DNA of 64,000 nt, from positions 1 to 64,000 of the forward strand of contig NZ_JACHXQ010000011.1 of assembly GCF_014192285.1 (NCBI RefSeq), given 5' to 3'. A program made the position numbers and the translations under genes. The notes under the pieces are model-generated. The model had not been told where the DNA came from, did no database searches, and saw only the letters and a program-made list of their open reading frames with translations. Shown piece after piece: positions 28,833-43,757 of this stretch (positions within the stretch are counted from its first letter, which is position 1; every line of letters begins with the position of its first letter). Source of the DNA: Halomonas fontilapidosi (GTDB lineage: Bacteria > Pseudomonadota > Gammaproteobacteria > Pseudomonadales > Halomonadaceae).

Positions 28833-29453
28833 CTATTGCCTGATCGCCTCGAGTTCGAGGATCAGCTCCACCTCGTCGCCGACCAGGCCATTATCGACGC
28901 CGTAGGTCATTCCCCAGTTGCTGCGGGCAATGGTGGTGCGCACCGACAGGCCCAGGGTGTGCTGTTCATGACCGAAGGGGTAGGCGTCGGCCTTGTTGAG
29001 CGTGACCTCCAGGGTGACGGGGTGGGTCTCGCCGAGCAGGCTCAGGTCACCTTCCAGGGTGCCCTCGCTGTCACTATGTGCCGTGAAGTCGGTGACCTCG
29101 AAGACAATCGTCGAATGGCGGCTCGCGTCGAGGAAGTCGTCACTGCGTAGGTGGTTATCACGCTCCTCGTGGTTGGTGAACACGCTGTCGGTGGCAATCT
29201 CGACGGTGCCCGAGTGCAGTTCTCGTGTCTGCTCGTCGTAGACGAACTCGCCCCGGCCTTCCAGGAACATGCCCAGGGTGTCGGCGTAACCGACGTGTTC
29301 GGTCAAAAAGCCGATAGAGAAGTGGTCAGGGTCGATTTCATAGGTACGCGGCTCGGCATTGACCGATGGCACCCAGAGGGCGCCCAGTGCCAGGGTGAGC
29401 CCTGCGGCAATGGGCAACGAGGCGCGTGGGGTATGCTGGAGTGATGAAGGCAT
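28833..29453 (-). CDS. YceI family periplasmic protein
   Basis: Lipocalin-like secreted protein that in relatives binds isoprenoid chains. 206 residues with a signal peptide ending near residue 33 (SVNA/EPR). The mature part starts YEIDPDHFSIGF and has strands typical of YceI, including the DDFLDASRHSTIVFEVT and LLGETHPVTLEVTL regions. A second YceI protein lies at 43758-44357, with low similarity. It is 47 bases upstream of the phosphatidyltransferase gene on the same strand. Function is not established. Confidence 0.9.
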   Translation of the reverse strand: MPSSLQHTPRASLPIAAGLTLALGALWVPSVNAEPRTYEIDPDHFSIGFLTEHVGYADTLGMFLEGRGEFVYDEQTRELHSGTVEIATDSVFTNHEERDNHLRSDDFLDASRHSTIVFEVTDFTAHSDSEGTLEGDLSLLGETHPVTLEVTLNKADAYPFGHEQHTLGLSVRTTIARSNWGMTYGVDNGLVGDEVELILELEAIRQ

Positions 29454-29500: not shown

Positions 29501-30238
29501 TCATGCCGAGGCGTGGCGATACAGCCAGCGGATATCGATGATGAACGATCCGGCCAGGCCGGCCAGCGCGCTACCCGTCACCCAGGTCGTGGCCGTGGCA
29601 CCGGCAACGGGGAGCAGGGCGACCATCAAGGCAACCACTTGCCAGACACAGATCGCCTTGCGACGAAGACTCTGCGGCAGGGGAGCCGTCAGCCAGGAGA
29701 ACGGCAGTCCCGCCATGACAAAAGCGTAGCGCATGCCGCCGATGGCCAACACCCAGGGACCTGCCTTGTCGAGCAACACCACTGCCACGCATAGCACCAG
29801 GATCAGAAAGGCATCGAGCTCCATGTCGAAACGTGCCCCGAAATCGCTCTGGGTCGAGGTGCGACGGGCGACGGCACCGTCCACCCCATCCAGTACCAGC
29901 GCCAGCAGAGCCAGGACGGCGAAGGGGAGAGGGTGTCGCGTCAACAGGCCGGGGTCGGCCAGGATCCCCGTCAGCAGGGCAATCAGACAGCCACGGCCCA
30001 GCGTGATGCGGTTGGCCAGGCCCAGCCCCTGCCAGGGAGCGGGGACGCCGGTCAGGATGCAGCCCGCCATCAAGAGGTAGGATGTCGCTGCCAAGAGGAG
30101 GACCCACAGGCTAGGATCAAGCCAAGCCCACAGCAGTGCCAGTGAGGCAAGCAGTCCCAGGCCGCCTGCGCCAAGGTCACGTAACAGCGGCAGGGTCAGT
30201 CGTCTGGCGGGGTCAGGACTCGATTGACAGTATTGCAT
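29501..30238 (-). CDS. CDP-alcohol phosphatidyltransferase family protein
   Basis: Integral membrane enzyme predicted to transfer a phosphatidyl or phospho group from a CDP-alcohol. 245 residues with about six membrane segments. The diagnostic motif is complete: D-G-x2-A-R-x8-G-x3-D-x3-D in DGAVARRTST followed by GARFDMELD. The acceptor alcohol is unknown. The start at 30238 has no clear Shine-Dalgarno site; an in-frame ATG at 30304 is an alternative, but a plausible -10 element lies between them. It is divergent from the pterin-like cluster. Confidence 0.82.
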   Translation of the reverse strand: MQYCQSSPDPARRLTLPLLRDLGAGGLGLLASLALLWAWLDPSLWVLLLAATSYLLMAGCILTGVPAPWQGLGLANRITLGRGCLIALLTGILADPGLLTRHPLPFAVLALLALVLDGVDGAVARRTSTQSDFGARFDMELDAFLILVLCVAVVLLDKAGPWVLAIGGMRYAFVMAGLPFSWLTAPLPQSLRRKAICVWQVVALMVALLPVAGATATTWVTGSALAGLAGSFIIDIRWLYRHASA

Positions 30239-30261
30239 TGTGCAGCCCACTATGGATGTAT

Positions 30262-30300
30262 CACTATTGTAGAAGAATGAGCATAACGGCAACAGTAGTG
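30262..30300. promoter_or_regulatory. Inverted repeat in the divergent region before the pterin-like cluster
   Basis: CACTATTGT (30262-30270) and ACAGTAGTG (30292-30300) are complementary except at one base. The region is AT-rich and contains a minus-strand TACAAT. It may hold an operator or promoter for either divergent gene. No local regulator gene is present. Confidence 0.3.
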
Positions 30301-30407
30301 TCATAAGATTTCAGTGGTGGCCATTCAAGTGCCTGATGTTGGCCGCTACGCGTCACGCGCCGAAATGGTCTGTGGTGAGAATTGATATAGCCGATAGGGA
30401 TGTTGCC

Positions 30408-31394
30408 ATGCCACATGCGAACGCGACTGCCTTCTGGGTCCTGGCGCCGGGTCAGGGTGCGGTGTGCGAGGAAGCGTTAGCCATGCCCGGTGCCGGCGAA
30501 GTGGCCGTGAGAACGCTCTATAGCGGCGTCAGCCGAGGCACCGAGTCGCTGGTATTCGGGGGTCTCGTGCCGGAAAGCGAATGGCAGCGTATGCGTGCCC
30601 CGTTTCAGGAGGGAGATTTTCCCGGCCCGGTCAAGTACGGCTACATCAGTACTGGCGTTGTCGAGGCTGGCGAGCCGAGCCTGATGGGCCGTGAGGTATT
30701 CTGCCTCTATCCGCACCAGGATCGCTATGTGGTGCCGGCAGACGCCGTGGTCCCCCTGCCGGAAGGTCTGCCGGCCTCCCGGGCGGTATTGGCCGCCAAC
30801 ATGGAAACTGCTATCAATGGCGTCTGGGACGCCGCCCCGGGGGTAGGCGACCGAATTACGGTGGTTGGTGCCGGCGTGACCGGCAGCCTGATCGCCTGGC
30901 TATGTGCCGCCATTCCCGGTACCCGGACCTGTCTGGTGGATGTGTCGCCGGGGCGAGCCGAGCTCGCCGGGGCACTGGGTATCGATTTCTGCCTGCCCGA
31001 CCAGGCGCCCGCCGACAACGATCTGGTGGTTCACGCCAGCGGCAATCCCGCCGGGCTGCGTCAGGCACTGACGCTGGCCGGTAACGAGGCGCGGGTCGTG
31101 GAGATGAGCTGGTTCGGCAGCCAGGCGGTGACCCTGCCGCTGGGAGAGGCCTTCCACTCGCGCCGCCTGACCCTGCAAGCCAGCCAGGTAGGGCATATGC
31201 CGGCCGATCACGCGACGCGCTGGGATTCCCGCCGACGCCTGGCGCTGGCGCTGGACTTGCTGCGCGACCCCTGCCTCGACGCCCTGATCACGGGCGAGAG
31301 CGCCTTCCACGAGTTACCGGCGGTGATGTCACGCCTGGCCGAAGGTGGCGGGGACGTGCTCTGCCACCGAATCCGTTATTCGTCCTTTTCCTGA
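30408..31394 (+). CDS. MDR-superfamily dehydrogenase lacking the usual zinc ligands
   Basis: 328-residue medium-chain dehydrogenase/reductase. The N-terminal catalytic domain has YSGVSRGTESLVFGG where zinc alcohol dehydrogenases carry a catalytic Cys, and no GHE motif follows, so catalytic zinc is probably absent. The Rossmann domain reads ITVVGAGVTGSLIAWL. The SRGTE pattern recalls BchC-like and related dehydrogenases. AGGGA lies nine bases before the ATG at 30408. It is first in a tight five-gene run (17-base gap to the PTPS gene, then four-base overlaps), so it probably acts on an intermediate of that pathway. Confidence 0.85.
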   Translation: MPHANATAFWVLAPGQGAVCEEALAMPGAGEVAVRTLYSGVSRGTESLVFGGLVPESEWQRMRAPFQEGDFPGPVKYGYISTGVVEAGEPSLMGREVFCLYPHQDRYVVPADAVVPLPEGLPASRAVLAANMETAINGVWDAAPGVGDRITVVGAGVTGSLIAWLCAAIPGTRTCLVDVSPGRAELAGALGIDFCLPDQAPADNDLVVHASGNPAGLRQALTLAGNEARVVEMSWFGSQAVTLPLGEAFHSRRLTLQASQVGHMPADHATRWDSRRRLALALDLLRDPCLDALITGESAFHELPAVMSRLAEGGGDVLCHRIRYSSFS

Positions 31395-31411
31395 TACGAG
31401 GAACCTGCCTC

Positions 31412-31810
31412 ATGTACCGCCTGAACGTTCGCGACCATTTCATGATCGCCCACAGCTTCAGCGGCGACGTCTTCGGACCCGCCCAGCGAACGCACGGTGC
31501 CACCTATGTGGTCGACGTGACCTTCCAGCGGCGTGAACTCGATGAGGATGACCTGGTCGTGGATATCGGCCTGGCCGGCGAAGCGCTCAAGACGGTGCTT
31601 TCCGAATTCAATTTCCAGAACCTCGATGAGGTGGAGGAGTTCAAGGGGCGTAACACCACCACCGAGTTCATGGCGCGGGTGGTCTTTGAACGTCTTGCCA
31701 CCGCCATACAGCTCGGCCATCTCGGCGATGCCGCCATGGGACTCGACTCCCTGTGCGTGACCCTGCATGAATCGCATGTCGCCTGGGCAAGCTTCGAGGG
31801 CGAGCTTTGA
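31412..31810 (+). CDS. PTPS/QueD-fold protein with a non-canonical active site
   Basis: 132-residue member of the 6-pyruvoyl-tetrahydropterin synthase / 6-carboxytetrahydropterin synthase superfamily. The fold pattern is clear: HFMIAHSF, RTHGATYVVDV, VVDIG, the GRNTTTEFMA segment and LHESHVAW with the pterin-anchoring Glu120. The active site departs from QueD. The catalytic Cys position is Ala24, the second His of HGH is Ala30, and the Asp-His pair aligns with Asn67-Phe68. It therefore probably does not run the normal PTPS or QueD reaction. It overlaps the next gene by four bases. Confidence 0.85.
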   Translation: MYRLNVRDHFMIAHSFSGDVFGPAQRTHGATYVVDVTFQRRELDEDDLVVDIGLAGEALKTVLSEFNFQNLDEVEEFKGRNTTTEFMARVVFERLATAIQLGHLGDAAMGLDSLCVTLHESHVAWASFEGEL

Positions 31811-32934
31811 AGCCTCAACAGGCGGTGGCCGAGCTGACCTTCATCGTCGCCGGTGACCCGGACCAGTGGACCGGCGGCTACGTCTACGACGCCCGCATCG
31901 TCGCGGAACTGCGCCGACAGGCGTGGCGTGTGGACGTAGTGGGCCTCGAGGGGCGTTTCCCGCAGGCCGATCAGCGGGCGCGCCGGAGCCTGTCGCAGGC
32001 CCTGGCAGCCCTGTCCGATACTGCCCTTGTGGTCATCGATGGCCTGGCCATGGGCGGTCTGGCCGAGGAGGTCGAGCGCGAGGCCGAGCGTCTGCAAATT
32101 GTCTCGCTCGTCCATCACCCCCTGGCCGACGAGGCCGGCCTCGACGAGGCGCAGCGCCGCGCGTTCCGCGATAGCGAGGCTCGAGCCCTGGCCGCCGCGC
32201 GTCGCGTGATCGTCACCAGCCAGCATACGGCCAGCGCGCTGCGCGACTACGGCGTCCCCGCGCAGCGCCTCCGGGTCGTCGAGCCCGGTGTCGACAAGGC
32301 CTCGCCGGCCACCGGTGCACAGGACCAGGAGGCCACCACCCGGCCCTGGCGTCTGCTCTGTGTGGCGACACTGATTCCGCGCAAGGGGCTCGGCCTGCTG
32401 GTCGAAGCGTTGGCCTGCCTTACCGATCGACCCTGGGTTTGCGAGATCGTCGGCAGTCATGATCGCGACCCTGCCCATGCCGCCCACTTGCGCGAGATCA
32501 CGCGTCGGCATGGCCTGACGGAGCGCATCATCTGGGCCGGTGAGCGGGACGCCGATGCCCTGGACGCCGCCTATCAGCGGGCCGATCTCTTCGTGCTGCC
32601 CTCGCTCTACGAGGGCTACGGCATGGTCGTGACCGAGGCGCTCTCGCGAGGGCTGCCGGTGATCACCACCACCGGTGGGGCGCTGGCCGATACCCTGCCG
32701 CCCGAGGCAGGCATCGCGGTACCTCCCGGTGATGCCGGCGCACTGCGAGAGGCCTTGTCGCGTTGGCTGGGTGACGCCGACACCCGGCGAGAGCTGCGTC
32801 ATGGCGCCTATCGGGCGAGGCAGCGGCTGACCGACTGGCAACAGGCGGGGCAACGTTTCCTGGCCGCTCTGGAAGGGCTTCCCGACATGTCGATCGCCGG
32901 CACCTTCCGAGCCGAGCGGGGGCTGCCGTCATGA
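31807..32934 (+). CDS. GT4-family glycosyltransferase
   Basis: 375-residue retaining GT-B glycosyltransferase. The donor-binding end has LIPRKGLGLLVEAL, ADLFVLPSLYEGYGMVVTEA with the E-x7-E motif, and GLPVITTTGGA. The start is a TTG at 31807 inside the stop of the PTPS gene (TTGA overlap); no better in-frame start is nearby. The acceptor is unknown, but its place between pterin- or pyrimidine-type genes suggests it glycosylates the pathway product. Its stop overlaps the methyltransferase start (ATGA). Confidence 0.88.
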   Translation: MKPQQAVAELTFIVAGDPDQWTGGYVYDARIVAELRRQAWRVDVVGLEGRFPQADQRARRSLSQALAALSDTALVVIDGLAMGGLAEEVEREAERLQIVSLVHHPLADEAGLDEAQRRAFRDSEARALAAARRVIVTSQHTASALRDYGVPAQRLRVVEPGVDKASPATGAQDQEATTRPWRLLCVATLIPRKGLGLLVEALACLTDRPWVCEIVGSHDRDPAHAAHLREITRRHGLTERIIWAGERDADALDAAYQRADLFVLPSLYEGYGMVVTEALSRGLPVITTTGGALADTLPPEAGIAVPPGDAGALREALSRWLGDADTRRELRHGAYRARQRLTDWQQAGQRFLAALEGLPDMSIAGTFRAERGLPS

Positions 32935-33806
32935 GGGCTTCCACCTCCCATGACCTGTTCTCGGCGCAGTGGCTGGCGCTGCGGGAAGGGCTGGATGCCC
33001 AGTCACGCAGCCATCGCCTGACCGGGCTGGCCGTGGACTGGCTGAAGGCCCGCACTGCGCCCCACGGTATCATCGATCTGGGCAGCGGCAGTGGCAGCAA
33101 TCAGCGCTTCCTGGCGCCACGCCTGCCCGGCCCCCAGCACTGGCGACTGGTTGACCATGACCCCGAGCTGTTGAGCCATGCTCGCCGGCGCGGCCGGCGC
33201 CTTCGCGACCGGGCAGGGGCACCGCCGGCCGTGGAGACCCTGTGTCGCGGCCTGTCGCCGATCGACCGCGAGCTGCTCACCGGTATCGACCTGGTGACGG
33301 CCTCGGCGCTGCTCGACCTGATGCCCCGCGCCTGGGCGGCCGCGCTGGTCGCTGCCTGTGCAGCGCAGGGCCAGGCCTTGTTACTGACCCTCAACGTGGA
33401 TGGCGACTGGGCCTTCCTCGACCGCCAGGGCGCGCGTGTCGAAGACAGCGAGGACATCGCCGTGCGCACCCTCTTCCAGACCCATCAGTACCGCGACAAG
33501 GGCCTGGGGCCGGCGTTGGCCGGCGAGGCGCCCGCGGTGCTGGCCAGCATGCTGCTGGACGCGGGGTTCCAGGTGGAGAGCGATGCGACGCCCTGGCACC
33601 TGGTGGCCGGCGATACTACACATCCCGGCCTGGCCGAGGCCCTGGTCGTCGGCTGGCACGATGCCGCCGTGGAGGAGGCACCGGCGCAGCGCGCTCGCCT
33701 GGGCGCCTGGCGCGACCGGCGCCTGGCCGACCTCCATGCCGGGGAGCTCGGGGTGACGGTGGGACACCGTGATCTCTTTGCCTGCCCGATACGGGGGGCG
33801 CCATGA
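32931..33806 (+). CDS. Class I SAM-dependent methyltransferase
   Basis: 291-residue Rossmann methyltransferase. Motif I is IIDLGSGSGSN (about residues 46-56) and the acidic residue of motif II is in RLVDHDPEL. IDLVTASALLDL occupies the motif IV position. The substrate is unknown. It overlaps the glycosyltransferase gene upstream and the membrane protein gene downstream by four bases each, so it is part of the same translationally coupled unit. Confidence 0.85.
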   Translation: MRASTSHDLFSAQWLALREGLDAQSRSHRLTGLAVDWLKARTAPHGIIDLGSGSGSNQRFLAPRLPGPQHWRLVDHDPELLSHARRRGRRLRDRAGAPPAVETLCRGLSPIDRELLTGIDLVTASALLDLMPRAWAAALVAACAAQGQALLLTLNVDGDWAFLDRQGARVEDSEDIAVRTLFQTHQYRDKGLGPALAGEAPAVLASMLLDAGFQVESDATPWHLVAGDTTHPGLAEALVVGWHDAAVEEAPAQRARLGAWRDRRLADLHAGELGVTVGHRDLFACPIRGAP

Positions 33807-34773
33807 TCCTGGCGCCATCCTCCCGCCTGTGGCGCCCTCTGGCCAGCCTGCTGCTGCTGGCCGGGCTCTGGGTCTGGCTCGAGCCGGGGGAGGTGATCGG
33901 CGCGGTCGGCCCCCTGGCACCGGGCTGGATCGTGCTGGCCCTGGCCCTGACGCTGCCGCAGATGCTGCTTTCCGCCTGGCGCTGGCGACTCACCGCGTGC
34001 CGGCTCGGCCTGTCGCTGGACTGGGCGCGTGCGCTGCGCGAATACTACCTGGCCATGTTTCTCAATCAGGTACTGCCCGGCGGCGTGGCAGGGGATGCTG
34101 CCCGCGCCTGGCGACACTCCCGGGCCAGCGGCCGGCGCGGCAGTGCCTGGCGGGCGGTGATCATCGAGCGCGCCTCGGGCCAGCTGGCGCTGCTGTTGCT
34201 GACGCTGCTGGTCGTGGCCCTCTCCCCCTTGTGGCAGGGATGGCTCGGCGGGGCGCTGGCGGGCCTCGCTTCACCGGGCTGGCTGATGGCCGCTGCGCTG
34301 CTGGTCGTGGCGACAGTGCCGGCGATACGCCACCTGCTGCGTCGACCGCCGGCGGCACTGGCCGGCCTGGGGAGTGACCTGCGCCACAGCCTGCTGGCAT
34401 CGTCGATCTGGCCCCGACAGCTCCTCGGCTCGCTGCTGGTGGTCCTGAGCTATGCCCTGGTATTCGTCTGTGCGGCCCGGGCGATCGGTGTCACCCTGCC
34501 GCTGGGCACCCTGCTGTCGCTGGTGCCTCCGGTGCTATTGGCGATGTTGATCCCGCTTTCGCTGGCGGGCTGGGGGCTGCGCGAAGGAGCGGCGGCGCTG
34601 GTCTGGGGGTTGGCGGGCCTGCCGCCGGCCGAGGGTGTGGCGGTGTCGATGGCCTATGGTCTGCTGGTGCTGCTGGCGAGCCTGCCCGGTGCCCTCTTCC
34701 TGCCGGGTCTGGCGCGCCGGCGTGCCATGTCGACGCCGTCGATGGCGGGCCCCGCGGGGTCAGGGTCGGCTGA
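33803..34773 (+). CDS. UPF0104/YbhN-like membrane protein (frame issue at 3' end)
   Basis: Polytopic membrane protein of the lysylphosphatidylglycerol synthase transmembrane / UPF0104 family, about 315 residues of recognisable sequence. Family motifs are FLNQVLPGGVAGDAARAWR, IIERASGQLALLLL, and the C-terminal SLAGWGLREGAAALVWGL. Such proteins often accompany glycosyltransferases and may move lipids or glycolipids. No in-frame stop follows the domain: the frame stays open to 35695, antisense to the whole reductase gene. A TGA in another frame at 34771-34773 would end the gene naturally. The end given here assumes a one-base frameshift near the GC-run at 34746-34759 and is uncertain. Confidence 0.7.
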
Positions 34774-35605
34774 GATCCAGGTCGAAGAGGGTGTCGTCGC
34801 CGCAGCGGAAGGTTCGCGTGACGGGGCGACGCGCTTGATCAAGGGTGGCAATGGGCGTCATGGCCAGTCCCGGCCGACCGGAGCCGATCAGCAGCGGCGC
34901 CACCAGCAGGTGCAGGCGGTCCAGCACGTCGGCCTCCAGGAATCTCGACACCGTGACGCCGCCGCCCTCGATCAGCACGCGCTTGAGTCCCTGCGCGGCG
35001 AGCGCCTCGAGCACGACGGCGGGGGTGAATCCATCGGTGCCCAGCGGCAGCCGCAAACGGGTGACGTGGTCGGCCGCCGGGGCGGGAATGACCGCCTGCT
35101 CGCCGACCAGATGCAGGCAGGGGGCCTGCGCCTCGCGCAGCAGGCGCAGCGACGCCGGTACCCGTCCACGAGGGTCGAGGATCACCCGCACCGGCTGGCG
35201 CCCGTCGACGTGGCGGACCGTGAGCAAGGGGTCGTCCTCGCAGGCGGTACCGGCACCGATCACCACGGCGTCGACCAGCGCTCTCAGCCGATGCAGGTGG
35301 ACGCGACTCTCGAGGCCGTTGATGTAGTGAGAGTGCCCGCGCTCGGTGGCAATGCGGCCGTCCAGGCTCTGGCCGAGCTGCGCCACGGCCAGGCGGCCGC
35401 GATGCATGGCCAGCGGCGTCAGATTGTCGAGCAGCGCTCGGGCCTCGTCGCTTGCCGGGACGTCCGACGTCCAGCCGTCGGCCGTCAGGCAAAGCGGACC
35501 GTCTCTGACCATTGGCGACGCGCGACGGGCCACGTCATCACGGGCCCGGCAGAGGGCCTGCCAGGCCGTTGCCGGATCCAGGGGTTCGAGCTGGGTCGGG
35601 GGCAT
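34760..35605 (-). CDS. RibD C-terminal-type pyrimidine reductase (no deaminase domain)
   Basis: 281-residue protein with the NADPH-dependent RibD_C/DHFR-like reductase domain from about residue 70. LAVAQLGQSLDGRIATERG, SHYINGLESRVHLHRLRALVDAVVIG and GTACEDDPLLTVR are closely related to riboflavin-pathway reductases. The CHAE zinc deaminase domain of bacterial RibD is absent; instead about 65 unassigned residues precede the reductase. It converges on the UPF0104 gene and is divergent from the GTP cyclohydrolase II-like gene, with 76 bases between. It would reduce a ribosylaminopyrimidine to the ribityl form in an accessory pathway. Confidence 0.88.
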   Translation of the reverse strand: MPPTQLEPLDPATAWQALCRARDDVARRASPMVRDGPLCLTADGWTSDVPASDEARALLDNLTPLAMHRGRLAVAQLGQSLDGRIATERGHSHYINGLESRVHLHRLRALVDAVVIGAGTACEDDPLLTVRHVDGRQPVRVILDPRGRVPASLRLLREAQAPCLHLVGEQAVIPAPAADHVTRLRLPLGTDGFTPAVVLEALAAQGLKRVLIEGGGVTVSRFLEADVLDRLHLLVAPLLIGSGRPGLAMTPIATLDQARRPVTRTFRCGDDTLFDLDLSRP

Positions 35606-35681
35606 GAGGTCTCCGGGTCAGAGGAAAGACGTCATCATGCGCAGTCCGCCTCGGCGGTACAAGGCGTGCAAGGAGGGCTCC

Positions 35682-36824
35682 ATGCATCAGGTTGAACGGG
35701 CAATCTTCGATCTTCGACGCGGGCTGCCGGTGGTGGTCATCGCCGGGGACACTCACGTGCTGGTCCAGGCCACCGAGGGTACGGCCGAGGCGTCGGTATC
35801 TCGGCTGGCCGATCTCGCCGGCAACACCCCCTCGCTGGTGCTGAGTCGTCACCGGCTGGCAGCGCTGGGCGAGTCGGACACCCGCGGGTCGGCACGGTTG
35901 CCCCTGCCGGCGGGCACCGGTCGGCGGCGACTCGTCGACCTGGCCTTCGGACTCAGCCCGGAACTGGCCCTGGGCCGCGACGAGCTGGCCGAGTGTCGTC
36001 GCTCGCTGGCGCCCGCACAGCCGGCCGACCGGGCGGCATTGGCGCTGATGCGCCGTGCGCTGTTGATTCCGGCAGCGCTGGTCGCCCGGGTCGGCGAGGC
36101 GCAGCGGCCTGCCGTCGAGGCCCGGCTGGCAGAAGGGGCCTGGCTGGCCGTCCGTGCCGATCAGGCCGAGCGTTGCCTGGAGGGCGGTATCGGCATGCTG
36201 CAGCAGGTCAGCGAGGCACGCATTCCCTTGGCCGAAGCCTTCGACTGTCGCTTCATCCTGTTTCGGGAAGCCGACGGCCTGCGTGAGCACGTGGCGGTGG
36301 TGATCGGCGAGCCGGGCAAGGACAACGCGGCGGTGCCGCTGCGCCTGCATTCGGCCTGCCTGACCGGGGATCTGTTCGGCAGCCTGCGCTGCGACTGCGG
36401 CGAGCAGCTGCGCAATGCCGTGGCCGATATCCAGGCGCTGGGCGGCGGCGTGCTGCTCTACCTGGCCCAGGAGGGGCGAGGCATCGGGCTGGCCAACAAG
36501 CTGCGCGCTTATACCCTCCAGGACAGCGGTCTGGACACCCTGGATGCTGACCAGGTGCTGGGGTTCGGTGAGGACGAGCGCCACTATGGGGTGGCCGTGG
36601 ACATTCTGGATGCCCTGAGCATTCGCCGCGTGCAGCTGTTGACCAACAATCCGGGCAAGATGGCGGCCCTCACCGAAGGCGGTATCGAGGTAGTGGAACG
36701 CCAGGCGCTGTATGGCAGCCTCAACGACCACAACCGCCGCTATCTCAGCGCCAAATCGGAGCGCGCCGGTCATCTGCTCGATGCCGTGTTCGAGAGCGAT
36801 CAGGACCCCGCCACGGGGTCCTGA
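35682..36824 (+). CDS. GTP cyclohydrolase II-like protein with extra N-terminal domain
   Basis: 380-residue protein. The C-terminal half (about 180-375) is a complete RibA domain: zinc Cys226, Cys237 and Cys239 in HSACLTGDLFGSLRCDCG, YLAQEGRGIGLANKL, LGFGEDERHYGVA and LTNNPGKM. The reaction would open GTP to a diaminopyrimidinone with loss of formate and pyrophosphate. The N-terminal 170 residues are not a recognisable RibB domain, though the layout recalls RibBA fusions. AAGGAGG precedes the ATG. Its place beside a RibD-type reductase and PTPS-fold gene indicates a pathway paralogue, not the housekeeping riboflavin gene. Confidence 0.9.
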   Translation: MHQVERAIFDLRRGLPVVVIAGDTHVLVQATEGTAEASVSRLADLAGNTPSLVLSRHRLAALGESDTRGSARLPLPAGTGRRRLVDLAFGLSPELALGRDELAECRRSLAPAQPADRAALALMRRALLIPAALVARVGEAQRPAVEARLAEGAWLAVRADQAERCLEGGIGMLQQVSEARIPLAEAFDCRFILFREADGLREHVAVVIGEPGKDNAAVPLRLHSACLTGDLFGSLRCDCGEQLRNAVADIQALGGGVLLYLAQEGRGIGLANKLRAYTLQDSGLDTLDADQVLGFGEDERHYGVAVDILDALSIRRVQLLTNNPGKMAALTEGGIEVVERQALYGSLNDHNRRYLSAKSERAGHLLDAVFESDQDPATGS

Positions 36825-36832
36825 CGCGCGTT

Positions 36833-37648
36833 CTAGCGGCTGAGGGCGTCGCCGAGCGGTATCTCGCCGGTCTCGCGCAGGATGCGGGCGATGCGCTGGC
36901 CGTAATGTGCCACTAGCTGCTCGCCGAGCTCGGCGGTGCCCAGGGGAGCGTTGCCGACCACCCCGCCGGGATGCAGGTCCTCGGCCAGCCAGGCGAAGGC
37001 GGCCTCGCCCTCAGGGCCCAGCAGCAGCCCTTGCCCCTCCATGACCTCGCCCCGTGAATGGGGCTGGTCCAGCTTGTCGAGGCGCACCTTGTGCGGGGCC
37101 AGATGGCGCATCATGGCGGTCTCCAGCGCGCCGCCATGAAGCCCGTGGCGCAGCTCGTCGACGGGCAGGCTGGCCTCGGGCAGGTCATCCGGTAGCGGCA
37201 TTCTCGTGTAGTGGACCTTGACCACCAGCATGCCGTGCCGGCGGCGCAGTCTCAGGGCGGCCAGGTCGATCACCGCCTTGTTGCCGCCGTGGCTATTGAT
37301 CACGACCAGGCGCTCGAGGCCGGCATGCGCGACGGCGTCGCCATGGGCCTCCAGAGTGGCTATGGCCAGTTCGGGCGGCAGGCTGAGGGTGCCGGGAAAG
37401 CTCAGGTGCTCGTCGCTGGCGCCTATCGCCATCGACGGCAGTCGCACCAGCGGGAAGGGCTCGGAAAGGAGAGTCAGCGCCTTCTCAAGCAGCCCTTCAC
37501 CAATATCCAGGTCGGTGGAGAGCGGTAGATGGTCGCCGTGCTGTTCGATGGCGCCCACCACCATGACGGCCACGCCATGGCGCGGCAGGGTCGCTATCTC
37601 GTCACTGGTGAGATCCTGCCAGCGGGGGCTGAGGATGGGATCACTCAT
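36833..37648 (-). CDS. Creatininase-family amidohydrolase
   Basis: 271-residue metal-dependent amidohydrolase. The metal site is readable: EQHGDHLP (Glu35, His37, His40), STDLDIGE (Asp46), VVINSHGGNK and LHGGALETA. The family includes creatininase, MftE and the archaeal formamidopyrimidine deformylase ArfB. It ends eight bases from the convergent GTP cyclohydrolase II-like gene. Its start at 37648 overlaps the fkbM gene by eight bases, so it is translated with the opg operon. Deformylation of a GTP-derived pyrimidine is an attractive but unproven role. Confidence 0.88.
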   Translation of the reverse strand: MSDPILSPRWQDLTSDEIATLPRHGVAVMVVGAIEQHGDHLPLSTDLDIGEGLLEKALTLLSEPFPLVRLPSMAIGASDEHLSFPGTLSLPPELAIATLEAHGDAVAHAGLERLVVINSHGGNKAVIDLAALRLRRRHGMLVVKVHYTRMPLPDDLPEASLPVDELRHGLHGGALETAMMRHLAPHKVRLDKLDQPHSRGEVMEGQGLLLGPEGEAAFAWLAEDLHPGGVVGNAPLGTAELGEQLVAHYGQRIARILRETGEIPLGDALSR

Positions 37649-38480
37649 GGCGTGTGCGCTCCGTGTCGTATCGATGATCGATGGCATGTGCGATGTGCCG
37701 CGCATAGAGGTCGCCCGAGGCGAGCCCGTCGGCACCTGCGGCCAACCAGTCGCGCGTGGCCGCCGCTGAACGCCAGGCGGCCCACGTGAACCGCCGCTGC
37801 TCGCCGGCAATGACGTTGAACTGGTAACTCCCCAGTTCCTCCAGCCGTGCCACGCAGCGCTCGGCCACGTCCAGGGCGCCGGCCACGAACTCCACCGAGA
37901 CCCCGGCGATGGGCTGCGTCAGTCCGGCCAGTACCTCGGCCTCGAAGCCCTCCACGTCGATCTTGCAGAAGCGCGGCAACCCATGGTCGGCAATCAGCGT
38001 GTCGAGCGTGGTCACCGGAACGCGCTGGCGACCCTGCCAGCGTACCTTGCGAAAACCGGCGTTGCGCTCGCCGATGTCACGGCGCCATTCATGGGCCAGG
38101 GTGGAGACCGTCGGCGTCGCCTCGCTGACCGCCAGCTCGGCTGTCCCGGGCGTGGCACCCGCCGCACAGGGCAGCAGGGTGACGCCGCGGCGTCGACCCA
38201 CCAGGCGCTTCAGCCAGGGAAACAGCACCGGCTGCGGCTCGAGCGCGATCACGCGGGCGCCCAGCGCCTGGAAGGCCGCGGTGCGATCGCCCAGGTGAGC
38301 GCCGATGTCGAACACCAGGTCGTCAGGACCGATGAACTCGGCATAGAGCCGCTGCAGGCCTCGCTGGCGGCCCGGCCGCCAGTAGATCAGCAGTGAACGG
38401 GCCAGGCCCAGGTAACGTGGCAGATGATAGGCCGCGGTGACCAGTCGGCTGGGCATGAGGGGGCTATCGGCATGCTTCAT
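37641..38480 (-). CDS. FkbM-family methyltransferase
   Basis: 279-residue SAM-dependent methyltransferase. LVFDIGAHLGDRTAAF is motif I, VIALEPQP motif II, and VTTLDTLIADHGL with FCKIDVEGFEAEVLAGL is the FkbM signature. Family members O-methylate sugars, lipids or polyketides. The ATG at 38480 overlaps the opgH stop by four bases. Its position in the opg operon suggests it may methylate the glucan or a linked molecule; this is not a usual opg gene. Confidence 0.88.
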   Translation of the reverse strand: MKHADSPLMPSRLVTAAYHLPRYLGLARSLLIYWRPGRQRGLQRLYAEFIGPDDLVFDIGAHLGDRTAAFQALGARVIALEPQPVLFPWLKRLVGRRRGVTLLPCAAGATPGTAELAVSEATPTVSTLAHEWRRDIGERNAGFRKVRWQGRQRVPVTTLDTLIADHGLPRFCKIDVEGFEAEVLAGLTQPIAGVSVEFVAGALDVAERCVARLEELGSYQFNVIAGEQRRFTWAAWRSAAATRDWLAAGADGLASGDLYARHIAHAIDHRYDTERTRHE

Positions 38481-40426
38481 TCGGATTTCGCCTTGACATG
38501 GTGGCTCGCCTGGCGCGTCGACCCGGCGGGCGTCGCCTCGCACGGCGACACAGCGGCTCGGGGTGGCCAGCGGGAAAACGACTGCAGGGGCATCTCGCCG
38601 GGCGATTCCGGCGGCGGGGGCGCCAGGTGGGCCCCGGCCGGGCTGAACGCGGCTGTTGCTGGCTGCTGCAGTAGCCGGCTGGGTGTCACCTCCGCCGGCG
38701 CCTTCAGCAGGCCGGCGCGGAAGAGCCGACGGCCATGGGCGAGGCTGCTGGTTATCCTGACCAGTGGTGCGGCCATCAGCAGGCCCAGCCAGACGGGCGC
38801 GAGCCACCAGAAGAACAGCGGGGCGAGCAGGTAGGTCGACCCGGCCCATAGCGCGCCGACCAGGGTTGTGAGCCAGGTATGGCGAAACGCCTTGCCCCAG
38901 GGGACCGCTCGCCCCTCGCGAATCTGGGCGTCCCAGCTGACCCGTCTGCCGCCAAGAACGCCCAGGATGAACCCGCTGTGCAGCAGCATCATGACCGGGG
39001 CGATCAGCACGGCGATGGCCATTTCCAGCAGGCTGCTGGCCAGCAGGGAGGCTCTGCCGCCGAAGTCGTGGGGTCGCTGAATGAGTGCTAGCAGCAGGCC
39101 CAGCACCTTCGGCAGCATCAGTACCAGCGCCGTACTGAATAGCAGCGGCATGATCAGGTCGGGCGTGTTGACGGGCCAGTCGGGAGAGAGCTGATAGCCG
39201 GCACTGAAGAAGTCATGGCGACCCTGGGCCCGACCGATGGCGTCCAGGGTGCCGATGAGCAGCATCACTCCCCATAGCAGCGAGGTCAGATAGGCCAGCG
39301 CGCCGAACAGGAAATGCAGGCGGCTCATGAGCGGCAGGCCGGCAGCGCCGAGCAGCCGCAGATGCTGCAGGTTGCCCTGTATCCAGCGCCTGTCGCGCTT
39401 GGCGAACTCGAGGATATTGCTGGGGACCTCCTCGAAGCTGTCACCGAGCCGCGTCTCCAGATGGACCTCCCAGCCGGCCCGGCGCATCAGCGCCGCCTCG
39501 ACGAAGTCGTGGCTGAGTATCTCGCCACCCAGCGGCGGCTTGCCGGCCAGTTCCGGCAAGCCGCAACTGGCCATGAAGGCTCGGGTGCGCAGGATGGCAT
39601 TGTGGCCCCAGAAGTTCGCGCCATGGCCCTGCCAGAAACATTGTCCGGTGGCGAGCAGGGGACTGTGCAGGGCCGCGGCGAACTGGATGAAGCGCCCGAA
39701 GACGCTGGCCGAGCGGACCGGAATGGGGACCGTCTGGATCAGGCCGATAGCGGGGTTGGCCTGCATGGTGGCCACCAGTGCCACCAGCGTTCGGCCGCCC
39801 ATGAGGCTGTCCGCGTCCAGTACCACCAGGTAGTGGTAGCGATGGCCCCAGCGCCGGCAGAAGTCTGCCAGGTTGCCGGCCTTGCGACCGTGGTTGGCTT
39901 CGCGGCGGCGATAGTGGACCACCAGCCGAGGGGCGAGTCGCTGTTGCAGGCCCGCGATGGCGGTTTCCTCCCGGCGGGCGATCGCCTCGTCCTGGGTATC
40001 GCTCAGCACGAACACCTCGAAGCCCTTGGCCTGGGGCTGATCGAGCAGCGAACGACAGGTGCTTTCCAGGCCGGCCACGACACGCCTGGGATCCTCGTTG
40101 TAGATGGGCATCACCAGTGCCGTATGGTGTTTCCCCGGCTCTCTCACCCCGGGTTGGGACGCGAGGCGGGCCAGGGTCAAGGGATCACGACGCGTCAGCT
40201 GCAGCAAAAAGCCGATGATCGCCGTCCAGAAGGCGATGGTGATCCAGCCGAAGGTGATCACGAACAGGCCGAGAATGATGCCCTGCAGCAGCGTGATGCC
40301 GTTGACGCGCAGGATCTCGACCATGGCCGCGCTACCCAGGGCGGTCGTGGCGAGCACCAGCAGGGTCACGCCTACCTGCCGCGCGGCCAGCCAGGGCACG
40401 CGAGGCGAGCGGTCAGCGAAGTTCAT
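38477..40426 (-). CDS. opgH: OpgH, periplasmic glucan glucosyltransferase (short form)
   Basis: Inner-membrane GT2 glucosyltransferase that builds the beta-1,2-linked glucan backbone from UDP-glucose. The 649-residue protein has ALVMPIYNEDP, LVVLDADSLMGG, LSHDFVEAALMRRAGW and RDRRWIQGN (DxD, ED and QxxRW-like motifs), with about six membrane segments around the catalytic domain. E. coli OpgH has 847 residues; the long cytoplasmic N-terminus that binds FtsZ is missing. The C-terminal 60 residues are Pro/Ala-rich. It overlaps opgG by 14 bases and fkbM by four. Confidence 0.94.
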   Translation of the reverse strand: MNFADRSPRVPWLAARQVGVTLLVLATTALGSAAMVEILRVNGITLLQGIILGLFVITFGWITIAFWTAIIGFLLQLTRRDPLTLARLASQPGVREPGKHHTALVMPIYNEDPRRVVAGLESTCRSLLDQPQAKGFEVFVLSDTQDEAIARREETAIAGLQQRLAPRLVVHYRRREANHGRKAGNLADFCRRWGHRYHYLVVLDADSLMGGRTLVALVATMQANPAIGLIQTVPIPVRSASVFGRFIQFAAALHSPLLATGQCFWQGHGANFWGHNAILRTRAFMASCGLPELAGKPPLGGEILSHDFVEAALMRRAGWEVHLETRLGDSFEEVPSNILEFAKRDRRWIQGNLQHLRLLGAAGLPLMSRLHFLFGALAYLTSLLWGVMLLIGTLDAIGRAQGRHDFFSAGYQLSPDWPVNTPDLIMPLLFSTALVLMLPKVLGLLLALIQRPHDFGGRASLLASSLLEMAIAVLIAPVMMLLHSGFILGVLGGRRVSWDAQIREGRAVPWGKAFRHTWLTTLVGALWAGSTYLLAPLFFWWLAPVWLGLLMAAPLVRITSSLAHGRRLFRAGLLKAPAEVTPSRLLQQPATAAFSPAGAHLAPPPPESPGEMPLQSFSRWPPRAAVSPCEATPAGSTRQASHHVKAKSE

Positions 40427-41975
40427 CGGGGTTCCAGATATAGTTCCAGGTTTCGCTCATGGGCGCATCGCGCAGCGTCAACCCCAGGCGCATGTCCACG
40501 GGACGCCTCCCCTCGGGCTGCACCCTGAAGGAGGCGCGCCAGGTGTCGCCGTCGGGCAGGCGCTGCACCGTTACCTGCCGGGCCTGGCCGCTCGAGAGCT
40601 CGAGTTCGGCGACCACCGGGTGGGTGTCGTCCAGGCTCGAGAGCTCCCCGCCACGGAAATCGACCACGAACTGACGGAGGCTGCGCGGCGGTGGGTCACG
40701 CTGGCCTGGAACGGCCCCCCAGCCTTGTCGGGTGCGCAGGGTCTGGGCCAGGGCCTGCTCGGGATGTCGGGCATCGAAGGTCGCGAGCCGGTAGCGATAG
40801 GTGCGCGACTCGCCCGCTGCGAGCGGCTGCTCGGGGACCCAGTAGGTGACGATGTTGTCGTGGGTCTCCGAGTCGCTGGGAATCTCGACCAGTTCCACGC
40901 TGCCCGTCCCCCAGTCGTCGAGTGGGGCGATCCAGTGGCTGGGGCGCCGCTCGTAGCGGGACTCCATGTCCAGGTAGCGGGCGAAATCTCGGTCTCGCTG
41001 GGCCAGGCCGAAGCCCGCGGGATGGGTGTCCTGCAGGCGAGTGACGCGTAGTTCGCGTGGGTTGTTGAGCGGGCGCCAGATCCACTCGCCGGCATGGGTC
41101 TGCATCAGCAGGCCCTGGGAATCATGCACCTGGGGACGGAAGTCATCGGCAGGGTAGGGACTGACGTCGCCGTGCATGAACATGCTGGTCAGCGGCGCGA
41201 TACCCAGCTTCGCCACCTCCACGCGGGCGAACAGGCGTGCCTCGATGTCCACCTCGACCTGCTCGCCGGCATGCACCCGGAAATGGTAAGCCCCGGCGAG
41301 CGAGGGGCTGTCGAGCAGGGCGATGATGTCGATATGCGACGCCATCGGCTCGGGCTGTACCAGCCAGAATTCTGTGAAGGCCGGGAACTCTTCACCGCGC
41401 GAAGACGCCGTATCGATCGCCAGACCTCGAGCCGAGAGGCCGTATCCCTGATCGCGGCCTACCAGGCGAAAGTAGCTCGCGCCCTGGAAGACCAGGAACT
41501 CGTCATGGTAGTCCTCTCGATTGAGGGGGTAGTGCAGGCGAAACCCGGCGTAGCCGGCCCCACTCAGGTCCTGCTCCTTGAGTGGCGCGGCCGCGGCGTC
41601 GTAGCGAAACAGGGAGGGCTGGAAGGGCAAAGGCCGAGGCTGCCCGTCCTCGATCAGATTCAGGCGGACCGGTCGCTCGAACAGGAAGCCCGTGTGGAAT
41701 AGCTGGAGCGAGAATAGCGCCTCGCCCCGCCACACGGCGGCCTCCGGGCGAAAGCGAATCGCACGATAGGCATCATAGTCGAGATCACGCAGTGCGCGGG
41801 GTAGATTGCCGGCCGGGTCATCGAAAGGTGATGCCGCGAGCTGGCGAGCGCGCTGCGTGACGTCGGCGAAGATCTCGGATGCATCCGGAGCGGGCGCAGC
41901 CCAGCTCGCAGGCGTGATGCTGGCGATAAGCAGGCCGCTGGCCAGCCACCATAATGGCGACAAGGGTGGGGGCAC
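40413..41975 (-). CDS. opgG: OpgG/MdoG, periplasmic glucan biosynthesis protein
   Basis: Secreted beta-sandwich protein required for periplasmic glucan synthesis, recently viewed as a glucan-processing glycosidase family. 520 residues with a signal peptide ending near residue 26 (SWA/APA). The MdoG domain shows RPEAAVWRGEALFSLQLFHTG-like sequence, SYFRLVGRDQGYGLSARGLAI and HWIAPLDDWGTGSVELVEIP. The GTG start at 41975 is supported by AAGGAGG nine bases upstream. It is the first gene of an opgG-opgH-fkbM-creatininase operon and is divergent from a sulfatase-fold transferase. Confidence 0.94.
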   Translation of the reverse strand: MPPPLSPLWWLASGLLIASITPASWAAPAPDASEIFADVTQRARQLAASPFDDPAGNLPRALRDLDYDAYRAIRFRPEAAVWRGEALFSLQLFHTGFLFERPVRLNLIEDGQPRPLPFQPSLFRYDAAAAPLKEQDLSGAGYAGFRLHYPLNREDYHDEFLVFQGASYFRLVGRDQGYGLSARGLAIDTASSRGEEFPAFTEFWLVQPEPMASHIDIIALLDSPSLAGAYHFRVHAGEQVEVDIEARLFARVEVAKLGIAPLTSMFMHGDVSPYPADDFRPQVHDSQGLLMQTHAGEWIWRPLNNPRELRVTRLQDTHPAGFGLAQRDRDFARYLDMESRYERRPSHWIAPLDDWGTGSVELVEIPSDSETHDNIVTYWVPEQPLAAGESRTYRYRLATFDARHPEQALAQTLRTRQGWGAVPGQRDPPPRSLRQFVVDFRGGELSSLDDTHPVVAELELSSGQARQVTVQRLPDGDTWRASFRVQPEGRRPVDMRLGLTLRDAPMSETWNYIWNPDELR

Positions 41976-42097: not shown

Positions 42098-43744
42098 ATG
42101 CCCATGTCGTTACCTTCTGGAATCCGCTGGTGCTTGAGTCTGGTGATGCTCAACGTCGTGTTGCTGGCACCAGTATGGCTGTTGCACGGCGGCCCGAGAC
42201 AGCACTGGATGGCCCTCGAGGCGTTCCTGCTGGCGGGGGGACTGGCGTTGCTGCCATCGGCCGGTCGGTTCGTCGGGCTGCGTTGGTCGCTGGTCGCGCT
42301 GATCATGACAGTGTTGCTGGTCGGCCTGGGAGACGTGGCGACCCACCTGGCGTTCGGACGTTCACTGAACCTCTACTTCGATCTTCCCCTGCTGCGTTCG
42401 GTCTTCCACCTGCTCGAGGGCAATCTGGGGGGCCCGGTCGCTAGCCTGATCAGCCTGCTCGGCTTGATCCTGCTGGCTGTCACGGCCTGGCTGCTGGCGA
42501 AGATGCTCGCGAGCCTGCAGGGCAGGGCGCGCCGACCGCGCGCGGTGGTCGGCGCCTGGGGGATGCTGGCGGTGAGTGGCATGCTGATCCTCGCCGAGTT
42601 TGACGAAGTCCGACCGCTGCCGGTGGCCCGTACGCCCCTGCTGGATACCCTGCAGTTCCAGGGGCAACAGTGGATCGAGACGCGCCGTGCCCACCGCGAC
42701 TTCGCCGAGCGCATGGCGTCGTCCCCCGTTCAGGAGACCGCCTTGCCGGGGCTTGCCGGGCGCGATGTGGTGCTGGTCTTCGTGGAGTCCTACGGCATCT
42801 CGGCGCTGTTCGATGATCGCTATGCGCGGGTGCTGGACCCGCGCCTTGATGGCATGGCCGAGCGCCTCGACGCCGCCGGTCTCTCGGTGGCCTCTGGCCT
42901 CCTGGACTCGCCGATCCGCGGTGGTCAGTCGTGGCTGGCCCATGCCACGCTGCTGAGCGGTCTGCGCATCGACAACTCGCTCTGGTATCGCCTGATGCTG
43001 GACAGTGAGCGCACGACCCTGGTCGATGACTTTCGCGCCACCGGCCACCGCACCCTCGCGGTGATGCCGGCCATTACCATGGCCTGGCCGGAGGGCCGGG
43101 CCTACGGGTTCGACGAGATCCATGCCGCGGCGGACCTCGAGTATGCCGGCCCGCCGCTGAACTGGGTGACGATGCCAGACCAGTACACCCTGCACCATTT
43201 CCAGACGCAGATCCGCAACGGTTCAGCAGCCTCCCAGCACGCTGAGTCGGCGCCGCTCTTCGCCCAGCTCGCGCTGATCAGTAGCCATGCGCCCTGGACA
43301 CCCATCCTGCCGGTGCTCGACGACTGGAGCGCGGTGGGTGACGGCAGCGTCTTTGCCCGCTGGGAAGACGCCGGCGAATCACCCGATCAACTCTGGCAGG
43401 ACCTGGAACGGGTGCGCGACCACTACGCCCGGTCACTGGACTATGCGCTGGGGGCCAGCCTCCGCTGGGCCGAGGATTTCGTGGACCAACAGACCCTGAT
43501 GATTCTGCTGGGGGACCACCAGCCAGCGCCCCTGATCACCGGCGACAACGCCAGTGGCGCCGTCCCGGTGCATGTCATCAGCGGTGACGCCGGTCTGCTC
43601 GAGCCCTTTCATGCACGAGGCTTTGTGTCCGGTCTCCATCCACCGCGTCCCGACGGCTATCCTGATGGCGAGGTGGCAGGTCAGCAGGCCCTGCGCGGCT
43701 GGCTTCATGAGGCGTTCGGTGTGAAGGAGACAACGGGTGAATAA
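42098..43744 (+). CDS. Sulfatase-fold membrane transferase (LTA synthase/OpgB-like)
   Basis: 548-residue inner-membrane protein. Four or five N-terminal membrane segments (to about residue 165) are followed by an alkaline phosphatase-fold domain. DVVLVFVESYGIS holds the first metal Glu, GGQSWLAHATLLSG the probable nucleophile region, and LLGDHQPAPL the second metal Asp-His pair. Such enzymes move phosphoglycerol or phosphoethanolamine from phospholipids to sugars. Being divergent from opgGH, it is a candidate for decorating periplasmic glucans as OpgB does, but this is inference. It ends 13 bases before a YceI gene. Confidence 0.82.
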   Translation: MPMSLPSGIRWCLSLVMLNVVLLAPVWLLHGGPRQHWMALEAFLLAGGLALLPSAGRFVGLRWSLVALIMTVLLVGLGDVATHLAFGRSLNLYFDLPLLRSVFHLLEGNLGGPVASLISLLGLILLAVTAWLLAKMLASLQGRARRPRAVVGAWGMLAVSGMLILAEFDEVRPLPVARTPLLDTLQFQGQQWIETRRAHRDFAERMASSPVQETALPGLAGRDVVLVFVESYGISALFDDRYARVLDPRLDGMAERLDAAGLSVASGLLDSPIRGGQSWLAHATLLSGLRIDNSLWYRLMLDSERTTLVDDFRATGHRTLAVMPAITMAWPEGRAYGFDEIHAAADLEYAGPPLNWVTMPDQYTLHHFQTQIRNGSAASQHAESAPLFAQLALISSHAPWTPILPVLDDWSAVGDGSVFARWEDAGESPDQLWQDLERVRDHYARSLDYALGASLRWAEDFVDQQTLMILLGDHQPAPLITGDNASGAVPVHVISGDAGLLEPFHARGFVSGLHPPRPDGYPDGEVAGQQALRGWLHEAFGVKETTGE

Positions 43745-43757
43745 TTCGGGAGGCAAG

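Follow-up and report, generated by a model that had tools for sequence, protein, structure and literature searches.

A conserved gene cluster of Halomonas fontilapidosi predicted to turn ring-opened GTP into a modified, possibly lipid-linked, pyrimidine or pterin

The first 64,000 nucleotides of contig NZ_JACHXQ010000011.1 of Halomonas fontilapidosi (hereafter the window; assembly GCF_014192285.1, 3.6 Mb, 23 contigs, 99.99 % complete) carry a cluster of genes coding for a zinc-less medium-chain dehydrogenase/reductase (MDR), a PTPS-fold protein, a family 4 glycosyltransferase (GT4), a methyltransferase, a flippase-like membrane protein, a CDP-alcohol phosphatidyltransferase, a RibD-type reductase, the GTP cyclohydrolase RibA and a creatininase-family amidohydrolase. 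This gene set is real and widely shared, and we found no described pathway of its make-up, nor any paper on the cluster or its product in the searchable literature. The cluster very probably encodes a dedicated pathway that starts from ring-opened GTP. The origin in GTP is well supported and a destination in the cell envelope is plausible.

Results

Four bacterial phyla and the haloarchaea have the neighbourhood in common

An initial annotation of the window, made from the sequence alone, had described eight of these gene families, and all eight were located as claimed. On the plus strand, the genes coding for the MDR (30408..31394, alternative start 30336), the PTPS-fold protein (COG0720; 31412..31810; Pfam PTPS, 89 bits), the GT4 (31807..32934), the class I SAM methyltransferase (32931..33806; matches below Pfam cut-offs) and the LPG_synthase_TM/UPF0104 flippase-like protein (33803..35695; Pfam LPG_synthase_TM, 134 bits over residues 14-294) form a packed block, in which three of the four junctions are the 4-base overlaps described by the annotation but the MDR/PTPS junction is a 17-base gap. 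The RibD gene (34760..35605, minus strand), ribA (35682..36824, plus strand) and the creatininase gene (36833..37648, minus strand) complete the eight. The cluster is nevertheless larger than eight genes. The CDP-alcohol phosphatidyltransferase gene, divergent from the MDR gene (29501..30304, minus strand; Pfam CDP-OH_P_transf, 60 bits), had been overlooked and is a ninth core member, and a looser set of envelope genes surrounds the core (see below).

Scanning with a profile of seven PTPS proteins yielded at least 585 confirmed relatives. The best 80 of these, the window itself and 16 loci on plasmids make up 97 loci in which gene presence was determined by tblastn, the window's own matches being counted only within positions 25,000-46,000. 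These loci span Proteobacteria, Gemmatimonadota, Acidobacteriota, Actinomycetota and the haloarchaea, and the neighbourhood recurs across all but two of them, in which PTPS stands alone, so that the cluster goes beyond chance; a conserved neighbourhood in other genomes was among the checks that the initial annotation had proposed. The most constant block is MDR-PTPS-GT4-methyltransferase (95, 96, 92 and 89 loci), followed by the CDP-alcohol phosphatidyltransferase (75), RibD (74), the flippase-like protein (53), the creatininase (48), RibA (42), an FkbM-family methyltransferase (36), a sulfatase-fold protein (26), MdoH (24), MdoG (24), YceI (22), cytochrome b561 (6) and GTP cyclohydrolase III (GCH III; 2), counts that do not amount to independent events since the loci are related and were chosen by similarity to PTPS or MDR. 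In the stricter subset of 81 loci with PTPS flanked by at least 5 kb on each side, the corresponding counts were MDR 79, PTPS 81, GT4 77, methyltransferase 77, CDP-alcohol phosphatidyltransferase 65, RibD 68, flippase-like protein 48, creatininase 42, RibA 39, FkbM 32, sulfatase-fold protein 24, MdoH 23, MdoG 23, YceI 20, cytochrome b561 6 and GCH III 1. Pairwise identities of the MDR, PTPS, GT4, methyltransferase, RibD and phosphatidyltransferase proteins run parallel (r 0.55-0.90, shared species history uncorrected). Beyond the named genes, clustering of open reading frames (ORFs) from 89 loci revealed antisense frames, a LysR-like frame in 11 loci and the frame of an ABC-transporter ATPase in 14, but no further conserved neighbour. 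At the level of whole genomes the distribution is patchy: 36 of 61 genomes drawn from the family (those with PTPS-IV) and 4 of 143 genomes sampled evenly from the class, the H. fontilapidosi genome included. Among the matches listed, the nearest named locus by PTPS protein is that of Halomonas ventosae (89 %).

Some loci have features of their own. Genes for ribokinase/PfkB-type kinases adjoin the cluster on two Rhodobacterales plasmids (L009 and L096), and an inositol-monophosphatase-family gene lies beside it in L096; both may add steps. On plasmid pNG700 of Haloarcula marismortui (L012) the PTPS frame appears disrupted at about 12976-13413, between intact MDR and GT4 genes. The PTPS genes of the Streptomyces plasmid loci L095 and L102 both have genes for cupin, MBL-fold, BTAD-regulator and sigma-70 proteins nearby.

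The GTP-opening enzyme varies by lineage

The ATG of ribA at 35682 is preceded by AAGGAGG, and its product matches the Pfam model GTP_cyclohydro2 with 184 bits. The extra N-terminal domain to which the initial annotation had drawn attention is present, but it is common to the known family NF006456, to which residues 4-368 of 381 align with 325 bits (cut-off 464, not reached). All 42 cluster RibAs keep the three zinc cysteines of GTP cyclohydrolase II. The tyrosine at position 105 of the Escherichia coli enzyme is needed for the full GTP cyclohydrolase II reaction; the aligned residue is Tyr in 35 of the 42 RibAs, including that of the window, and Met in the other seven, from Streptomyces and Amycolatopsis. 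In two of the six haloarchaeal loci (Natrarchaeobaculum and Haloarcula pelagica), a gene for GCH III, an enzyme that yields a formylated pyrimidine, directly precedes the MDR gene. The opener thus changes between Tyr-type RibA, Met-type RibA and archaeal GCH III but the genes around it remain, which indicates ring-opened GTP as the precursor.

The RibD protein has 281 residues and consists of a RibD_C domain alone (Pfam, 127 bits), with no match to a deaminase domain and with matches to bifunctional RibD models that stay below their cut-offs, which bears out its description as reductase-only. Besides the copies in the window, the genome codes for GTP cyclohydrolase II domains at C6:68428 and C7:15448, three in all, and for a second RibD_C domain at C7:13733. 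Other rib genes are therefore present elsewhere, and those of the cluster are paralogues, as had been supposed.

The creatininase-family protein (Pfam, 199 bits) belongs to a family that includes the archaeal formamide hydrolase, for which a named NCBIfam model exists, and scores below the cut-offs both of that ArfB model (NF033501, 20.8 bits, cut-off 180) and of the MftE model (TIGR03964, 96.5 bits, cut-off 172). Residues E35, H37, D46, H120 and E176, which we take to be metal ligands, are each found in 47 of 48 cluster creatininases, the 48th having a gap. Creatininase accompanies all seven Met-type RibA loci, and no creatininase was found in the fetched stretch of either GCH III locus. In a locus from a metagenome-assembled genome (MAG; L052) creatininase and RibD share one ORF.

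The PTPS-IV protein and the constant block

The window PTPS protein carries the motif FGPAQxxHGA. FGPAQ, named as the signature of PTPS-IV in PMC5445326, occurs in it and in 90 of the 95 cluster proteins, and is missing from the four intact haloarchaeal PTPS (L097-L100) and from the orphan L095. The CxxxHGH motif that PMC5041015 and PMC5445326 give for QueD (PTPS-I) is absent, Ala24 and Ala30 each being found in 91 of the 95 proteins. Aligned to solved PTPS enzymes, the PTPS-IV protein has Ala for the catalytic Cys, HGA for HGH and a changed Asp-His pair, and His14, His28, Glu85 and Glu120 are invariant across the 95 sequences. We take the altered Cys, His and Asp-His positions to be the catalytic residues of PTPS enzymes; as they are replaced, bacterial PTPS-IV would be expected to carry out a different chemistry on a pterin- or pyrimidine-like ligand. 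A relative of known structure, SCO6650 (PDB 3d7j, labelled uncharacterised), scores 224 bits against the PTPS profile.

Could these simply be supply genes, with the PTPS protein serving queuosine or folate synthesis and the rib genes riboflavin synthesis? The window protein is the only PF01242 match in its genome, so that the ordinary queD that the initial annotation had expected elsewhere was not found, and QueC is present; likewise, genomes G155 and G156 hold no second PF01242 match, which leaves a residual doubt. Against such a role stand the missing QueD motif, the other rib genes and two FolB matches in the genome. In addition, 33 of the 36 family genomes with PTPS-IV code for another PTPS-domain protein of weak score, and 19 of the 25 without it have a PTPS-domain protein too. 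On the motif and this co-occurrence we rejected a QueD or folate role for the window protein, and we regard the supply explanation as a whole as barely credible. Halomonadaceae genomes with or without PTPS-IV contain a frame of about 280-540 codons in which one or two PTPS domains match weakly (for example G187:C1:2890948 and G145:C27:166746-167477); it probably codes for their QueD-like protein.

The MDR proteins are indeed zinc-less, as had been proposed. The places where zinc ligands are expected hold SG(I/V)SRGTE- and KYGY-type motifs that hardly vary among 95 proteins, with Ser42, Thr45 and Glu46 in 94 of 95 (one gap), Tyr77 in 94 and Tyr79 in all 95, positions that presumably correspond to the Cys and His ligands of the catalytic zinc in zinc-dependent alcohol dehydrogenases. 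GT4 and methyltransferase are fused in one ORF in 17 loci (12 from Halomonadaceae, four from Marinobacter and one Gemmatimonadales MAG; L022, L031 and L053 among them). The predicted model of the methyltransferase (pLDDT 94.9) has only generic SAM methyltransferases as its nearest solved folds.

A phosphatidyltransferase and envelope genes accompany the block

CDP-alcohol phosphatidyltransferases share the motif DxxDGxxARxxxxxxxxGxxxDxxxD. Its residues D, D, G, A, R, G, D and D are identical in all 73 aligned cluster proteins. The phosphatidyltransferase gene is found in nine of 12 actinobacterial and three of six haloarchaeal loci, and in 47 of the 75 loci that have it, it is divergent and directly upstream of the MDR gene. 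In two MAG loci it is part of a longer ORF, shared with YceI in L041 and with the sulfatase-fold protein in L049. Together with the envelope genes, the phosphatidyltransferase moves the picture from the free natural product of the initial annotation towards a lipid-linked component of the envelope.

In the window, the extended members comprise genes for an FkbM-family methyltransferase (37641..38516, minus strand, start codon uncertain; Pfam Methyltransf_21, 52 bits), an MdoH/OpgH-like GT2 protein (38477..40426, minus strand), which has GT2-type Pfam matches and is also matched by the annotated MdoH of L011, the periplasmic glucan protein MdoG/OpgG (40413..41975, minus strand; Pfam MdoG, 632 bits) and a membrane protein with a sulfatase fold (42098..43744, plus strand; Pfam Sulfatase, 25.1 bits, cut-off 25). 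Two YceI-like genes (28833..29453, minus strand, Pfam YceI 129 bits; 43737..44357, plus strand, 87 bits) bracket the extended cluster, the second standing at its far end. Every one of the 36 PTPS-IV genomes in the family draw has MdoG, versus nine of the 25 without PTPS-IV (Fisher's test, P = 1e-8), a per-genome value inflated by genera that lack both; by genus, the figures are 13 of 13 versus six of 11 (P = 0.011).

A sequence search of the sulfatase-fold protein against solved chains gave no match. Its predicted model (pLDDT 87) shows helices at residues 7-208 followed by an alkaline-phosphatase-superfamily domain, and its best fold matches are LtaS (Z 21.0, root-mean-square deviation 4.0 over 281 residues), LtaP (Z 20.8, 4.2 over 271) and GacH (Z 20.6, 3.3 over 259), at 11-16 % identity; EptC, ICR/MCR and BcsG rank below GacH, and true sulfatases appear from Z 18.4. 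Enzymes of the LtaS-type fold group transfer lipid-borne phosphoglycerol or phosphoethanolamine to polymers. Ser278 and the metal-type residues Asp223, Glu230, His397, Asp473 and His474 are invariant in the 20 aligned proteins, with Ser278-Trp279 (GGxSW) at the place of the nucleophile, presumably where sulfatases have their Cys/Ser motif and LtaS and EptA a Thr. The protein is, judging by its predicted fold, a putative phospholipid-headgroup transferase.

The flippase frame runs antisense through RibD

Unexpectedly, the flippase-like gene does not end ahead of the RibD gene. Its frame of 630 codons continues beyond the membrane part, which ends at about 34690, in register antisense to the whole of RibD, and stops at 35695, 14 nt inside ribA; the difference between RibA start and flippase ORF end is -13 in 15 loci. 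Of 20 Halomonadaceae loci ordered flippase(+), RibD(-), RibA(+), 17 are open through all of RibD, L025 and L056 through all but its last 69 nt, and L026 has a normal flippase stop. A set of 20 loci in which antisense stops were counted had been picked for long flippase ORFs, so that its three observed versus 140 expected stops overstate the case. Stops occur within RibD in three Halomonadaceae loci without RibA at that place (L023, L024 and L044) and in four Marinobacter loci (L031, L053, L055 and L065). We considered a downstream RibA as the general cause of the open frame and rejected it, because L019, L036, L057 and L087, outside the family, combine a downstream RibA with a normal stop, and because the frame is open in Streptomyces locus L084 with RibA 758 nt away. 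The distance between RibA start and RibD start takes the values 41, 77, 86, 98, 113, 149 and 182 nt in 15 loci, all equal to 2 modulo 3, with L032 and L046 (153 nt) as exceptions.

The open frame may be a meaningless by-product of codon usage. In the GC-rich window just 2.4 antisense stops are expected. In lower-GC relatives RibD has a higher GC content at third codon positions than the other genes (0.706 versus 0.60-0.66), and further codons are reduced in it (CTT, 32 versus 57.7 expected; TTT, 14 versus 84; TAT, 3 versus 33; GCA, GCT and AAA). The amino acids of the flippase tail exceed antisense controls in conservation by only a small margin. However, in 12 lower-GC relatives, all of which also have a long flippase ORF, RibD contains no TTA, no CTA and no TCA, whereas 57, 48 and 19 would be expected from neighbouring genes, and TTG, TCT and AGT are overrepresented. 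In these relatives the remaining two antisense frames of RibD contain 5-17 stops, and the in-register antisense frames of MDR, RibA, creatininase and phosphatidyltransferase contain 3-22. RibD four-fold sites are also more alike (identity 0.695 versus 0.579-0.621 in neighbours over 11 species pairs, and the highest in eight of them). Chance is accordingly a highly unlikely explanation, and the open antisense frame seems to be under selection. The overlap would be translated and kept mainly stop-free, perhaps as a translational bridge that lets a plus-strand message reach RibA. The nested pair offers a suitable natural system in which to study translation across an antisense gene.

Discussion

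From the conservation of the neighbourhood, the paralogy of its rib genes, the retained catalytic and metal residues, the shared ORFs and the folds, we infer the following reactions and product. RibA, or GCH III in haloarchaea, would open GTP. With the openers that release a formylated product (Met-type RibA and GCH III), the creatininase-family amidohydrolase would remove the formyl group, and the deaminase-less RibD would reduce the ribosyl chain to give 2,5-diamino-6-ribitylamino-pyrimidinone phosphate. This pyrimidine or its side chain may then be reworked by the PTPS T-fold protein and the polyol-type, zinc-less MDR, perhaps with ring closure to a pterin, and GT4 and the methyltransferase would glycosylate and methylate the resulting pyrimidine or pterin. 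The CDP-alcohol phosphatidyltransferase would join the product to a phospholipid, the UPF0104/LPG_synthase_TM protein would flip it across the membrane and, in lineages that combine the LtaS/EptA-fold enzyme with MdoG and MdoH, the phospho-headgroup may be passed to a periplasmic glucan.

The early steps follow from the named enzyme families, and it is in placing PTPS and MDR, in the lipid acceptor and in the transfer step that the scheme goes further. We put the odds of a lipid-linked product at even, and those of the complete scheme, from ring-opened GTP to a glycosylated, methylated, lipid-linked and flipped product that is partly transferred to glucan, slightly below that. Transfer to the glucan taken alone is unlikely. 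Equally doubtful is the boldest form of the proposal, in which the GTP-derived pyrimidine or pterin is the headgroup of a new glycosylated phospholipid, common to bacteria and haloarchaea, which is flipped across the membrane and which, in some lineages, the LtaS-like enzyme hands on to osmoregulated periplasmic glucans. The interpretation offered by the initial annotation is partly supported. Neither of the two findings that it had named as refuting, a lack of any conserved neighbourhood in other genomes and an absence of rib genes outside the cluster, was made. A reduced, glycosylated and methylated GTP-derived pyrimidine or pterin moved by a flippase fits our findings, and its free state is what the envelope genes call into question.

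Several observations weigh against this scheme. RibA is absent from 55 of the 97 loci, where supply by the housekeeping enzymes is an assumption, and RibD was found in none of the six haloarchaeal and only five of the 12 actinobacterial loci. The creatininase also occurs with Tyr-type RibA in 29 loci and without RibA in 12, and six loci with Tyr-type RibA lack it. We rejected a pure formamide deformylase, which would suit the seven Met-type loci, on account of the 29 Tyr-type loci, and regard formamide hydrolysis as no more than the likeliest role of the creatininase. Matches of the phosphatidyltransferase to solved enzymes are short and weak throughout, the gene was not found in 22 loci, some of which are cut contigs, and the sulfatase-fold protein, MdoG/H and YceI are present in about a quarter of the loci. 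In the Streptomyces plasmid loci L095 and L102, PTPS occurs without any other gene searched, and the haloarchaeal PTPS, being without FGPAQ, may constitute a different subfamily. An unpublished claim quoted in PMC5041015 ties archaeal PTPS-IV to F420, and PMC5445326 ties PTPS-IV to FolE2 neighbours; when the ORFs of 89 loci were clustered, no conserved neighbour of the FolE2 type emerged, though no model search for FolE2 was made.

A rival product would be a free, secreted, glycosylated and methylated pterin or pyrimidine acting as a signal, pigment or antimetabolite, which the phosphatidyltransferase, YceI and MdoGH merely accompany. Glycosylated pterins do occur in cyanobacteria, and the constancy of MDR-PTPS-GT4-methyltransferase next to FkbM, sulfatase-fold, MdoGH and YceI genes present in a quarter to a third of the loci is what such a product would predict. 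It fits poorly, on the other hand, with a phosphatidyltransferase that reaches into actinobacterial and haloarchaeal loci and shares ORFs with YceI and the sulfatase-fold protein in two MAG loci, and with a flippase-type protein in more than half of the loci, and we consider it rather unlikely. Alternatively, a lipid-anchored reduced pterin or flavin-like head could work with YceI and cytochrome b561 as a membrane redox carrier or antioxidant. YceI occurs in 22 loci, twice in the window, and cytochrome b561 is annotated in L007, L010 and L101, yet b561 is rare overall, no redox partner is constant, and a carrier would have no need of GT4, the methyltransferase or an LtaS-like enzyme, which makes this possibility quite improbable.

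A pathway dedicated to ring-opened GTP would assign a function to the PTPS-IV family and could explain the extra GTP cyclohydrolases kept by many bacteria. It could also reveal a GTP-derived lipid or envelope modification and, if true, a nucleotide-derived decoration common to bacteria and haloarchaea.

The cluster resembles several known systems in part. The archaeal riboflavin route uses GCH III/ArfA, the formamide hydrolase ArfB and the reductase ArfC. The cluster has in common with it the opening of GTP, a creatininase-family protein and a deaminase-less RibD_C-type reductase, and, in two haloarchaeal loci, GCH III itself beside the MDR gene. It differs in that no lumazine or riboflavin synthase appeared among the conserved neighbours in ORF clustering, the ArfB cut-off is missed and the bacterial opener is a GTP cyclohydrolase II. 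Toxoflavin-type clusters likewise use paralogous RibA-like and RibD-like enzymes for secondary metabolism, but are not known to have PTPS, GT4 or CDP-alcohol phosphatidyltransferase. The sulfatase-fold protein is like the headgroup transferases of the LtaS, OpgB and EptA type in its predicted fold, for which LtaS is the best match and OpgB does not appear among the matches listed, in the long N-terminal helices that precede the domain and in the position of its gene next to MdoG. It is unlike LtaS and EptA in its invariant Ser. Another parallel is the SCO6650-SCO6655 region of Streptomyces coelicolor, in which SCO6650 is close to the window PTPS family; Streptomyces loci among the 97 carry MDR-PTPS-GT4-methyltransferase-creatininase-RibA. 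Spoonamore et al. reportedly found in 2006 that SCO6655 makes a formylated pyrimidine owing to a Tyr to Met change. Compared with this region, the window RibA keeps the Tyr, and the window adds the FkbM, MdoGH, sulfatase-fold and YceI genes.

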